From NCBI GenBank assembly GCA_903913215.1, contig CAIWKE010000022.1, positions 1-58,261 of the forward strand: a stretch of DNA of 58,261 nt. The letters run 5' to 3'. The notes beneath the pieces were generated by a model. The model was not told the origin of the DNA. It did no database searches and saw only the letters and a list, made by a program, of their open reading frames with translations. This document shows, in pieces, positions 17,709 to 20,971 of the stretch; the stretch's first letter is position 1; each line of letters begins with the position of its first letter. This DNA comes from an uncultured Holophagaceae bacterium (GTDB lineage Bacteria; Acidobacteriota; Holophagae; Holophagales; Holophagaceae). A program made the translations under genes and the position numbers.

Positions 17709-18431
17709 TCAGGCGCAGGCGGCCTGGAGGAAGGCCAACAGCCTAGGGTTTTGCTGGAACAACACAGCGTCGACGAGGGCCCCCTTCAGGGCTTGGTGAG
17801 TGTGGACGGCTTCGAGGTGGTGGGCTTCCCGCAGGCTTCCCCCCATGACCAGGGGCAGGCCCGTGGCGGCCGTCAGTTCCAGGGCCGTCTTGAAGTCGGG
17901 TGGGGTCTGGACATCCTCCGGGAGGTCCACGAAGAGAAGGCGGCGGAAGCCGTATTCCTTGGCGCGCAGGGCCAGATCCAGGGCGCTGAGGCTGGTGGTG
18001 TCCACCCAACCAGAGCGTTGCACCCGGCCGCCGCGAGCGTCGATGGCGGCAGTCAGGAAGGACTGGAAGCGGGCCATGAGCTGCTCGGAGACCATGGGTG
18101 ACTTATGGAGGATGGTGCCCGCCACCAGCCAGGAGGCACCCAGGTCGATGAAGAACTGGGCCTGGTCTGAACTGCGGATGCCGCCAGCCACCTGGACGCA
18201 GACCTTCCGGTCCCTGGCTCGGCTACCCCGGAGGATCTGGGCGATGAGATCCCGGTTGTTCCCCTTGCCCATGGCCGCATCCACGTCCACCAAGGCCAGA
18301 CGTGTGGCGCCCTCGTCCACTAGGTGTGCAGCCAGGTCCAGTGGGGCTTCGAGGCAAACCTCGCACAGCCCTGCGGTGGAGACCACGCGGCCGTTCTGAA
18401 GGTTCAAGGTTGGGTAGATCTTCAAGCGCAC
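17709..18431 (-). CDS. HisA-like (beta/alpha)8 barrel protein with altered active site
   Basis: A 240-residue protein similar to HisA, the ProFAR isomerase of histidine synthesis. Matching blocks are NGRVV near the start, LVDEGATRLALVDVDAA, VQVAGGIRSSDQAQ, AGTILHKSP, AIDARGGRV and LPLVMGGSLRE. Two things argue against ordinary HisA. The first catalytic Asp of the opening strand (IPA-x-D-L in HisA) reads YPTLNLQNG here, an Asn. The late T-D-x-x-RDG block is replaced by VDLPEDVQ. No other his gene is near; it sits between rnc and the LRV gene. It may bind a phosphorylated ligand without isomerase activity. The GTG start lacks a clear ribosome site. Confidence 0.75.
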   Translation of the reverse strand: MRLKIYPTLNLQNGRVVSTAGLCEVCLEAPLDLAAHLVDEGATRLALVDVDAAMGKGNNRDLIAQILRGSRARDRKVCVQVAGGIRSSDQAQFFIDLGASWLVAGTILHKSPMVSEQLMARFQSFLTAAIDARGGRVQRSGWVDTTSLSALDLALRAKEYGFRRLLFVDLPEDVQTPPDFKTALELTAATGLPLVMGGSLREAHHLEAVHTHQALKGALVDAVLFQQNPRLLAFLQAACA

Positions 18432-18469
18432 ACCGTGAAATAAAGGCCAACAGGAGTGTAGCGCAAGGG

Positions 18470-19177
18470 TTACTTCTTTGTGCGAGTTCCGAGGAGGAGC
18501 AGCAGGCGCTTCGCGGCTTCGCTCTCAGCGCGCTTGCGGCTCAGGCCCTCGGCTTCGGCGGCCTGATCCCCCACGCTCACCTGCACTGTGAAGCGCGGGG
18601 CGTGGCCCGGACCCGCCTGGCCCACCTGGGCGTAGGCCGGGGCCGGCAGGCCCAGGCGCGCGGCGGTCTCCTGCAGGTGGGTCTTGGGATCTTGCTGGGT
18701 GAGGCCCTCGGGCACCGCGGCCTGGATGGTCTTCAGGAAGCGCTGCTCGACTAGGGCCTTCACGGTACCGGCGGCATCCAGGCCCGTAGCCTGGGCATCC
18801 AGGTAGATGGCGGCCAGCAGGGCTTCCAGGGCATCCGCCAGGGGCTTGGAACCCATGGGGGGGGCCTTGCGGGGATGGGTGGCGCTGAGGGCCTGGTCGA
18901 GGCTCAAGTCCAGGGCCCAGGCGTGGAGGGACTCTGTGCGGACCAGGAGGCCCCGCAGCTTGCTCATGGAGCCTTCCTGCCAGTCCGGGTGGGCCTCGAA
19001 GAGCACCTGGGCCACGGTGAAATTGAGCAGAGCATCCCCCAGGAACTCCAGGCGCTGGTTGTCGCGGCCCTTGGCGGCGGAGGCGTGGGTGAGGGCTTCC
19101 TGGAGCAGGGAGCGCTCCTGGAAGCGGTAGGCCAGCCGAACCTCCAGTGCGCCGAGGTGATCCTTGCTCTTCACCAC
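18470..19177 (-). CDS. rnc: Ribonuclease III
   Basis: A 235-residue double-strand-specific endoribonuclease that processes rRNA precursors and other structured RNAs. The catalytic signature is RLEFLGDALLNF (about residues 42-53) and the second acidic cluster is LADALEALLAAIYLDA. A C-terminal double-stranded RNA-binding domain begins near DPKTHLQETAARLGLPAPAY and ends with RKRAESEAAKRLLLLL. The start lies two bases after the kinase stop, so the kinase gene and rnc are cotranscribed. Confidence 0.95.
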   Translation of the reverse strand: MVKSKDHLGALEVRLAYRFQERSLLQEALTHASAAKGRDNQRLEFLGDALLNFTVAQVLFEAHPDWQEGSMSKLRGLLVRTESLHAWALDLSLDQALSATHPRKAPPMGSKPLADALEALLAAIYLDAQATGLDAAGTVKALVEQRFLKTIQAAVPEGLTQQDPKTHLQETAARLGLPAPAYAQVGQAGPGHAPRFTVQVSVGDQAAEAEGLSRKRAESEAAKRLLLLLGTRTKK

Positions 19178-19179
19178 GC

Positions 19180-20814
19180 TCAGTCCGCCCAGTCGGGGGG
19201 GAGCTTCTGGTTCAGCCGGGCGTTGTTGTAGGCCGACCGGAAGCGGGCGTTCTGGCTCATCTGGTTGAGGAGATTCAAGCGTCGGGCCTCGCGCAGCTCC
19301 TGGTGGAACTCGACCATGCGGCGCTGGTTGTAGAGCAGCCAGGCCAACCAGGCATGCGCGTTGGCGTTGTAGGGGTCGGCCTTGATGGCCTGGCGGAAGC
19401 CCACGAGGGCCTTGTCGGGCTGGGTCTCAGAGATCTGAATGGCCTCACTCAGAGACACGAGGCCGAGGTTGGTGCGCTCGTGGGTTTCCAGCTGCTCGAG
19501 CTTCTCGGGCGTGTATTTCTCTGGCTGATCGATGACCCGGGGTTCGGGCCCATTCTTGACCCTGGGTGGCGGCTCCGGCTGGACCGCAGGCTTCCCGGCG
19601 GGGAGCTGGACTGGATTCGACGGAATGGCGCCCTGGGGTGGGCTCGCCTGGCCCTTTGGGGCCGTGGGGCTGGCCTGGGGGGCGGGGGAACCGGCGACGG
19701 GCTTAGTTTCGGCGGGGATCGGGTCCGTGGCCGCAGGAACCGTTGGGGCGTTGGTGCCCCGACCCTTGAGCAGCCACCAGGAGGTGCCCCCCACGCCCAC
19801 CAGGAGCAGGGCGGCCAAGCCCAGCCAGAGACCCTTGCCCCCACCCTTACTGCTGCTCTGGGCACGGGCGGCCGGGGCCAGGGCGGGCGGCGCGGGCTGG
19901 AGGGTGATGGCTGAAGTGGGGATGGCGACGGGGGCTGCCGCCGTGGGGGCCGAGGCCTGCAGCTGGGTGGTGGCCTGTTCGACCTGACCCATGAAGGTGG
20001 GATCCTTGGCGGCGCGCAGGGCCTTGGCCAGGTCCTCGGCAGTCTGGTAACGCTCGTCGGGGTTCTTGCAGAGGGCCCGCTCCAGCACGGCGCGGATGGT
20101 GGGGCTGATGCCCGCCAGTTTTTCGGTCTCGATGGGCTCAGGGGGCTCGTTCACGATCTTGTAGAGCACCGTGGGCGTGGTGTCCCCGGCGAAGGGTTTC
20201 CGGCCACTGAGGGCCTCGTAGAGCATCACGCCCACAGCAAAGAGGTCACTGCGGGGGTCGGGCTTGCCCGTGCGGATGTATTCGGGGGCCATGTAGCTCA
20301 CGGTGCCCATGACCATGCCCGTGGCGGTCATATCCGAGTTGCTGATCTTGGCCACCCCGAAGTCCATGACTTTGGCGTGGAGCCTCTTGCCGTCGCGCTG
20401 GACCCGCACGTTGGTGGGCTTGATGTCGCGGTGGACGATCTGCTGCCGGTGGGCGAAGCCGAGGCCATCGCAGACCTGGGCCAGGAGTTCCAGGGCCTCG
20501 GAGCGGGTGAGGGACTGGTCCCGGAGCAGCTCGTCCAGGTCATGCCCCTTGACGAACTCCATGGCGATATAGAGGACGCCCTGGTCCTCACCGAATTCAT
20601 AGATGGTGACCAGGTTGGGGTGGTTCAAGACGCCGGCGGCGCGGGCCTCCCGGGCGAACCGCTCCTTGGCATCCCCCCCCTGGGCCGCGGAGGGCAGGAT
20701 GGTCTTGATGGCCACCTCGCGACCGATGGAGGGATCCACGCCGAGGTAGACCTCCCCCATGGCGCCGTTACCCAGGACCCGCTTGATTTCAAATTTCCCA
20801 AGCTTTGTGAACAT
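19180..20814 (-). CDS. PASTA-less membrane Ser/Thr protein kinase with C-terminal TPR-like region
   Basis: Hanks-type kinase of 544 residues. Gly-rich loop GNGAMGEVYLG, catalytic lysine in VAIKTI (about residue 36), HRDIKPTNV with the catalytic Asp (about 130), DFGVAKI, and MAPEYI in the P+1 region make it likely active. A Pro/Ala-rich linker surrounds one membrane helix (GLWLGLAALLLVGVGGTSWW, about residues 327-348). The C-terminal outside part has SLSEAIQISETQPDKALVGF and NANAHAWLAWLLYNQRR, a TPR-like pair. The start at 20814 has AGAGGG five bases upstream. Divergent from the DUF4388 gene, with which it may share signalling. Confidence 0.9.
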   Translation of the reverse strand: MFTKLGKFEIKRVLGNGAMGEVYLGVDPSIGREVAIKTILPSAAQGGDAKERFAREARAAGVLNHPNLVTIYEFGEDQGVLYIAMEFVKGHDLDELLRDQSLTRSEALELLAQVCDGLGFAHRQQIVHRDIKPTNVRVQRDGKRLHAKVMDFGVAKISNSDMTATGMVMGTVSYMAPEYIRTGKPDPRSDLFAVGVMLYEALSGRKPFAGDTTPTVLYKIVNEPPEPIETEKLAGISPTIRAVLERALCKNPDERYQTAEDLAKALRAAKDPTFMGQVEQATTQLQASAPTAAAPVAIPTSAITLQPAPPALAPAARAQSSSKGGGKGLWLGLAALLLVGVGGTSWWLLKGRGTNAPTVPAATDPIPAETKPVAGSPAPQASPTAPKGQASPPQGAIPSNPVQLPAGKPAVQPEPPPRVKNGPEPRVIDQPEKYTPEKLEQLETHERTNLGLVSLSEAIQISETQPDKALVGFRQAIKADPYNANAHAWLAWLLYNQRRMVEFHQELREARRLNLLNQMSQNARFRSAYNNARLNQKLPPDWAD

Positions 20815-20971
20815 GGTGGCCCTCTCTGGGCGGCGGTAGGCGCAGGCAGACAGCATAAGTCCTCTTGGTCGCATGGCCAAGGACTGGGGATTTTTCGGCA
20901 CAACCTCCATGGTTTTCCGACTGGCGTCCTGAGCCAGACCATGCAAACTAGGAAGCACCCCCGGAGCCTAA

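Follow-up and report, generated by a model that had tools for sequence, protein, structure and literature searches.

The third HisA-fold gene of a Geothrix-type member of the Holophagaceae (Acidobacteriota), bacteria of soil and sediment, encodes a protein of ordinary fold and unusual fate, a family-wide pseudo-HisA (here, HisA′) set in a fixed gene order. On balance, we favor the view that HisA′ is a catalytically dead HisA paralog retained as a nonenzymatic barrel, probably as a partner of the helical-repeat protein encoded directly downstream. The window, i.e., the whole stretch of DNA analyzed (58,261 nucleotides), is contig C22 of a 3.9-Mb genome that is 95% complete, and its nearest relatives, judged by the HisA′ protein, are Geothrix and Holophagaceae (Acidobacteriota). 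The features on which the argument draws are the following.

17709..18425, minus strand: HisA′, HisA-derived pseudo-isomerase, likely 238 amino acids from the TTG at 18425
17709-18431, minus strand: HisA′ open reading frame (ORF) as first read, starting with the GTG at 18431
18402..18404, minus strand: codon of Asn10, which stands where PriA has Asp11, the catalytic Asp of strand 1; Asp in 0/59 orthologs
18165..18188, minus strand: AGGIRSSD block (residues 82 to 89), part of the stretch with the highest conservation; Arg86 corresponds to Arg85 of the distal-phosphate gripper
17769..17771, minus strand: codon of Asp221, where strand 8 of HisA has its phosphate-binding Gly; of 59 orthologs, 58 have Asp and 1 has Glu
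18455..18466, minus strand: TTGCGCTACACT, an extended -10-like element 3 bases past the rnc stop codon
15911..17701, minus strand: LRV/HEAT-like helical-repeat protein (596 amino acids), directly downstream of HisA′, with GGAG 4 bases after the HisA′ stop
18470..19177, minus strand: rnc (RNase III), the constant upstream neighbor of HisA′
19180..20958, minus strand: Ser/Thr protein kinase with weak TPR matches, a neighbor in many, not all, genera

The ORF is a member of PF00977 (116.9 bits against a cutoff of 23.6), with a match spanning residues 4 to 227, and it misses the HisA equivalog cutoffs (99.3 versus 228.95 bits for TIGR00007 and 100 versus 243 for PRK13585). The AF2 model of HisA′ (pLDDT, 89.1; pTM, 0.88) matched PriA/HisA structures by Foldseek and VIA-align, the best being 4x9s (Z score of 29.0, 232 aligned residues, and RMSD of 2.4). 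The values for 2y88, PriA D11N with bound PRFAR, were 27.8, 230, and 2.5. Three genes of the genome matched PF00977, namely, HisA′ on C22 and an adjacent pair on contig C3, which consists of hisF and a canonical hisA with the strand-1 Asp and TDVSRDGT. The C3 his cluster also contains hisD (PF00815) and frames resembling hisC, hisB, and hisG (named from their protein starts). Since a canonical hisA lies in the his cluster of the same genome, HisA′ is an extra copy. The preliminary description of this DNA had proposed looking for such a second gene and had named its absence as part of the outcome that would speak against a repurposed barrel; the gene was found beside hisF. That description also placed HisA′ away from his genes and, indeed, none was found around its locus. 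A trpF-family gene (PF00697, 35.3 bits) is present in the genome as well.

In order to compare HisA′ with HisA residue by residue, we tallied 59 orthologs of the 64 genomes carrying the gene (that of G017 is in pieces, and those of G023, G037, G038, and G039 are not included) against 37 HisA rows, with L212 dropped. Identical proteins, L001 to L003, and L061 were dropped from one of the other sequence sets. According to excerpts of two papers (PMC13055916 and PMC9088769; PMC7591586, also in excerpt, is a further background paper), Asp11 and Asp175 are the catalytic residues, Trp145 stacks on ProFAR, and Arg85 and Thr105 grip the second, distal phosphate. At the position of Asp11, the orthologs have Asn (51), Leu (3), Tyr (2), Gln (2), or Lys (1), compared with Asp in 35 of the 37 HisA rows, where the exceptions (L195 and L214) are odd HisA-like rows. 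Asn10 of the window protein, reported earlier as replacing the first catalytic Asp, does align with Asp11 of PriA, and the substitution goes beyond chance, being family-wide. The Asn mutant of the strand-1 Asp is, according to the preliminary description, inactive in the HisA enzymes studied; the excerpts name this Asp as catalytic and contain no activity value for the mutant. By their structure titles, D7N HisA and D11N PriA are forms that were crystallized with bound ligand. L195 (Candidatus Spongiihabitans) and L214, with Glu and His for this Asp, are separate cases of an altered HisA; in L195, the loop-6 Asp is likewise replaced, by Tyr.

Equally uniform was the change at the strand-8 Gly (GKALY in HisA), which we take to be a phosphate-binding residue of the proximal loop; it is Asp in 58 orthologs and Glu in 1, compared with Gly in 37/37 HisA rows. 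The loop-1 Arg19 is replaced by Pro (38) or Ser (21) in all orthologs, compared with Arg in 26/37 rows of ordinary HisA. At the loop-6 Asp175/176 position, we found Asp in 21 orthologs (including the window protein, as Asp173), Glu in 8, and another residue or a gap in 30, while the comparison rows had Asp (26), Glu (10), or Tyr (1). Because both positions vary in ordinary HisA, these two losses weigh less than those of Asp11 and the strand-8 Gly. Thr170 is kept in 2/59 orthologs versus 36/37 comparison rows, Arg143 of PriA has an equivalent in 0/59, and TDI-RDG of strand 6 is gone, in agreement with the earlier statement that the D-RDG block had been lost.

At the distal end, the gripper residues are kept in the window protein and in most orthologs: the equivalent of Arg85 (Arg86) in 57/59 and that of Thr105 (Thr106) in 55/59, compared with 37/37 and 36/37 comparison rows, respectively. 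The strand-5 Asp130 (Asp131 in HisA′; 56/59) and the Trp at position 145 (53/59) are invariant in the comparison rows (37/37 each). In the numbering of HisA′, the orthologs conserve Asp49 (59/59), Asp51 and Asp169 (58/59 each), and Trp142 (53/59). Thus, of the phosphate loops GGIR and MGGS that the preliminary description considered kept, both are present, but the distal site (GGIR/GT) stands and the proximal site is lost with its strand-8 Gly. Judged from the alignment, HisA′ has lost the reacting end of the site and largely kept the distal one, corresponding to the AICAR-ribotide portion of ProFAR. Having neither the loop-1 Arg nor the proximal phosphate loop, HisA′ is unlikely to bind ProFAR or another bisphosphate. 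Furthermore, three divergent orthologs (L052, L053, and L071) have lost Thr105, Asp130, and Trp145, with the gene and its order still there, so that ligand binding at the half-site cannot be universal.

HisA′ evolves under constraint. The median dN/dS ratio was 0.207 (231 pairs from 22 loci), compared with 0.251 for rnc and 0.203 for that part of the repeat gene which the same loci cover, indicating that HisA′ is maintained by selection. There were no in-frame stops inside the listed HisA′ matches, and 24 columns were invariant in 26 sequences. The most conserved stretch is QVxGGIRSSDQAQ, and strands 2 and 3 carry an invariant set made up of Asn59, Arg60, Ser88, and Asp89. The conservation of strand faces was compared between 22 HisA and 20 HisA′ sequences (L195, L214, and rows at least 75% alike were dropped), using face limits of our own choice. 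Expressed relative to each alignment's mean, the ratios for HisA′ versus HisA were tighter on strands 2 (0.53 versus 0.75) and 3 (0.24 versus 0.45) and looser on strands 6 (1.03 versus 0.79) and 8 (1.00 versus 0.60); those of the other strands were 0.59 versus 0.69 (strand 1), 0.67 versus 0.54 (strand 4), 0.92 versus 0.87 (strand 5), and 0.51 versus 0.50 (strand 7). Within HisA′, the faces of strands 1 (long loop), 5, 6, 7, and 8 were less conserved than those of strands 2, 3, and 4.

In a tree of 93 proteins (both L212 rows were dropped beforehand because of unknown letters), the 26 HisA′ sequences formed one clade (100/100) on a stem of 1.99. HisF was a separate clade (100/100) with which HisA′ did not group, and the family's own HisA, with six rows, was another (100/100). 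The parent of HisA′ falls on the HisA side, where the forks reach only 66/83 and long branches meet. The canonical HisA of the Holophagaceae sits on a long stem as well (1.75, six rows), and the copy of the window genome (L002, G000:C3:134805-135458) keeps the catalytic residues.

HisA′ was present in 64/77 Holophagaceae genomes, that is, 42/47 in the window's genus, 22/23 across eight further genera, and 0/7 in genera g2 and g11 (the raw tally of 69/77 takes in five genomes matching only via ordinary hisA/hisF). The six genomes without it outside g2 and g11 (G010, G022, G031, G035, G046, and G058) also lacked rnc and a strong repeat-gene match; queA was missing in five of them (G058 has it), and the TPR gene gave a weak match at most. 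This joint loss of rnc, the repeat gene, and mostly queA points to a block that dropped out during assembly or binning; the genomes may also have truly deleted it. In a sample of 297 genomes of the phylum, matches outside the family were at most 35% identical (E values of up to 1e-16), and the six examined proved to be ordinary HisA, carrying both Asp and TDV-RDG. We obtained 77 loci from a pattern-based scan of 84,980 species genomes. The 54 with at least 39% identity were titled Holophagaceae, Geothrix, Holophaga, or plain Acidobacteria, except for two whose match places fit the family genomes G060 and G061, namely, L182 (Deltaproteobacteria by title) and L190 (Bacillota by title). Identity was <37% in the remaining 23, of which 22 contained a HisA-type protein (L211 had only HisF), and 20 of these 22 had the strand-1 Asp (L212 by its printed start only), all except L195 and L214. 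In the genome sets searched, HisA′ was seen only in Holophagaceae. The genomes of families f2 and f3 of the class that were examined had no HisA′; a PF00977 search gave just short marginal matches in six f2 genomes (best, 24.1 bits) and, in five f3 genomes, hisA/hisF in four and a third copy in none. Literature searches on HisA paralogs or pseudoenzymes in Holophagae and on Holophagaceae histidine biosynthesis found nothing, those on PriA, D7N, and LRV gave only background, and among the matches listed, by title and the start of the abstract, there was no paper on HisA′.

The order rnc-HisA′-repeat gene, described previously for the window, was found there and in every family locus reaching both sides. 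The Ser/Thr kinase described upstream is likewise present in the window, but eight loci from the genera g9 and g3 have no kinase match between the TPR gene and rnc (L043, L045, L047, L049, L050, L052, L053, and L055; the 2.4-kb gap of L050 could accommodate a diverged kinase). L048 and L051 lack the genes that elsewhere separate the repeat gene from queA, and L050 lacks some of them. Given that the kinase and the repeat-queA genes vary among loci, rnc, HisA′, and the repeat gene are the core block. A strong repeat-gene match occurs in 62 of the 64 HisA′-bearing genomes, and in the two exceptions (G025 and G027), HisA′ lies at a contig end. HisA′ and the repeat gene covaried in evolutionary rate, with a partial r of 0.84 (66 pairs), as did the repeat gene with queA (0.84; 28 pairs) and with g335 (0.79; 66 pairs). 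Since another pair within the block covaries at least as strongly, the linkage may be passive.

The repeat protein is at least 54% identical to that of the window among aligned family members and has no Pfam match over the cutoff. Family f2 has a diverged repeat protein (21 to 29% identical by piece) with other neighbors and without HisA′. By sequence, the best hit among solved structures was a short phenylalanine hydroxylase stretch (E value of 0.0067), and a PHROGs search gave no match for either the repeat protein or HisA′. With its model (pLDDT, 85.6; pTM, 0.44), Foldseek retrieved mostly armadillo/HEAT-type repeats. In the fold comparison, PUF RNA-binding domains filled the first six rows (Z scores of 8.4 to 9.1, residues 339 to 596). 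We do not claim RNA binding from this, since helical repeats under a Z score of about 13 may show a mere common arrangement.

With regard to translation, codon 3 of the ORF as first read is TTG or GTG in 56/56 distinct upstream regions, and codon 1 is start-like in 8/56, so that the HisA′ start is most likely the TTG at 18425. The codon preceding the invariant Lys was TTG in 46 regions, GTG in 10, and ATG in none, possibly a conserved weak start. Just past the rnc stop, a -10-like element (TGNGTTANNNT and variants), a pattern chosen by eye after viewing the ortholog sequences, occurred in 60/61 loci (some genomes being represented twice), compared with a mean of 2.4 and a maximum of 8 in shuffled sequences. 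The figures were 15/16 versus 0.7 in other genera and 10/10 versus 0.5 with about one locus per genus. A simple promoter scan of the HisA′ region found no sigma-70 site. HisA′ and the repeat gene may form a transcription unit of their own. The gap from the HisA′ stop to the repeat gene start is 7 to 11 bases in 16/22 loci; the others are 31, 2, and 0 bases and three apparent overlaps that hang on the start choice. In the window, this junction reads TGA (stop), ACCT, GGAG, and TGATGATG, from which we infer translational coupling of the repeat gene to HisA′.

The following scenario would accommodate these observations. HisA′ would have arisen once, before the HisA′-bearing genera of Holophagaceae split, and would have been kept as a nonenzymatic (beta-alpha)8 barrel. 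With the acid/base Asp pair unconserved and both the proximal phosphate loop and the Arg of loop 1 lost, isomerase activity would be gone; judging from its residues, HisA′ is very probably dead as a ProFAR isomerase. The largely kept distal-phosphate gripper (Arg86, Thr106, and GG) would remain as a half-site, which might bind a small monophosphate (either the AICAR-ribotide end of ProFAR or a nucleotide resembling it) or act as a docking surface. The barrel would then work alongside the repeat protein, whose gene follows tightly on the same strand, in a regulatory or structural role. This partnership is our best guess, with about even chances of being right, and ligand gating of HisA′ is doubtful. 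More specifically, the distal half-site might have turned into a receptor that binds a nucleotide-like monophosphate (AICAR ribotide), with the barrel gating the repeat protein. We consider this unlikely; if true, nature would have its own equivalent of the ligand-holding D11N and D7N laboratory variants of PriA and HisA. The earlier proposal of a repurposed barrel that is no longer HisA is well supported by the other hisA, the lack of conservation of both catalytic Asp residues, the replaced proximal loop, purifying selection, and the single clade. Its further suggestion, a sensor or binding protein, is a hypothesis.

As a counterpoint, Asp173 in the window protein and Asp130, kept in 56/59 orthologs, would make other chemistry possible. 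In an alternative reading, HisA′ would still be catalytic and carry out a new reaction, acting on a smaller phosphorylated substrate with Asp131, Asp49/Asp51, or Asp169 as acid/base. The conservation of these residues and of Trp142 (53/59 at the lowest) and the largely kept gripper favor this, but Asp131 is lost in 3/59 orthologs with the gene still in place, the proximal phosphate Gly has become Asp or Glu throughout, and the faces of strands 1 (long loop) and 5 to 8 are less conserved than those of strands 2 to 4, with 6 and 8 relaxed compared with HisA. We therefore rate a new enzyme as unlikely. It is far less probable that HisA′ serves as an additional, slightly diverged ProFAR isomerase or as a PriA-like TrpF, with the changes tolerated. 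Its nearest solved structures are PriA, and it shares with Streptomyces PriA the NR that follows strand 2. However, Asp11, Arg19, and the proximal phosphate Gly are missing in 59/59 orthologs, the genome already has a canonical hisA and a trpF-family gene, and D7N HisA and D11N PriA serve as ligand-bound crystal forms. Least credible of all is a passive relic, i.e., a dead duplicate riding in a conserved operon. Pocket erosion in several lineages (L052, L053, and L071) would fit, but the relic is disfavored by purifying selection on HisA′, at a dN/dS ratio near those of the repeat gene and rnc; the lack of internal stops in the listed matches, the 24 invariant columns, and its own -10-like element also stand against it.

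A regulator of histidine synthesis, which would bind ProFAR, PRFAR, or AICAR ribotide and report flux, is quite unlikely, although its HisA ancestry, the kept gripper, and the natural Asn in 51/59 orthologs, like the D11N form that holds PRFAR in the crystal, are in its favor. So is the co-occurrence of losses in small-genome g2/g11 members (G001 to G003 and G073 to G076), probable histidine auxotrophs, where HisA′ and hisD are each found in 0/7 and the repeat gene in none; a PF00977 search of four of these genomes found no whole hisA/hisF, with one short fragment with stops in G001. Against the regulator, G061 (96% complete) has HisA′ with no hisA, hisF, or hisD match over the cutoff. G026 (87% complete) and G028 (77%) lack these his genes too, and the incomplete genomes G044 and G060 have hisD without hisA/hisF. 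Among the 26 HisA′ sequences of the tree, that of G061 (L071) has the longest terminal branch (0.92). The presence of HisA′ without his genes in G061 weakly argues that it is not tied to histidine synthesis, these being draft genomes. The missing his genes nearby and the lost proximal phosphate Gly also weigh against a regulator.

HisA and HisF are a textbook case of barrel evolution from half-barrels. A naturally dead HisA, with one site half lost and the other largely kept, would make the role of a barrel after catalysis testable, and HisA′ is upheld across the family down to about 37% protein identity. A homology-based hisA label for HisA′ would mislead in Holophagaceae genomes.

Several known systems can be set beside HisA′. 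WbuZ, AglZ/HisF2, and hisAF_rel (TIGR00734) are nonhistidine members of the superfamily of the PF00977 type, and HisA′ scores far below their cutoffs (38.7 versus 299.7, 28.1 versus 310, and 16 versus 179.85 bits, respectively). HisA itself (TIGR00007, PF00977) shares with HisA′ the whole-length fold, the GG-R and G-T distal-phosphate site, the strand-5 Asp, and the loop-5 Trp (the last two in most HisA′). Unlike HisA, HisA′ has no strand-1 catalytic Asp or loop-1 Arg (both in 59/59), its loop-6 Asp is unconserved, Asp or Glu takes the place of the proximal phosphate Gly, and it is a second copy off the his cluster. PriA, the bifunctional HisA/TrpF of Actinomycetota, is the best structural match and, in Streptomyces, also has Asn-Arg after strand 2, but HisA′ lacks equivalents of Asp11, Arg19, and Arg143 (0/59 each) and a conserved Asp175, and its host already has hisA and a trpF-family gene beyond HisA′. 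AdeK and SubTrpF2, PriA-derived paralogs, are, according to an excerpt of PMC13055916, HisA-fold duplicates with shifted roles, as HisA′ would be, although they occur in Actinomycetota and HisA′ in Holophagaceae. The binding-site changes given there for the two paralogs concern Arg143 and Ser81 as well as Arg19, Arg85, Thr105, Trp145, and Thr170, and the excerpt states no loss of Asp11 for either; HisA′ itself has lost Asp11 and keeps Arg85 and Thr105.
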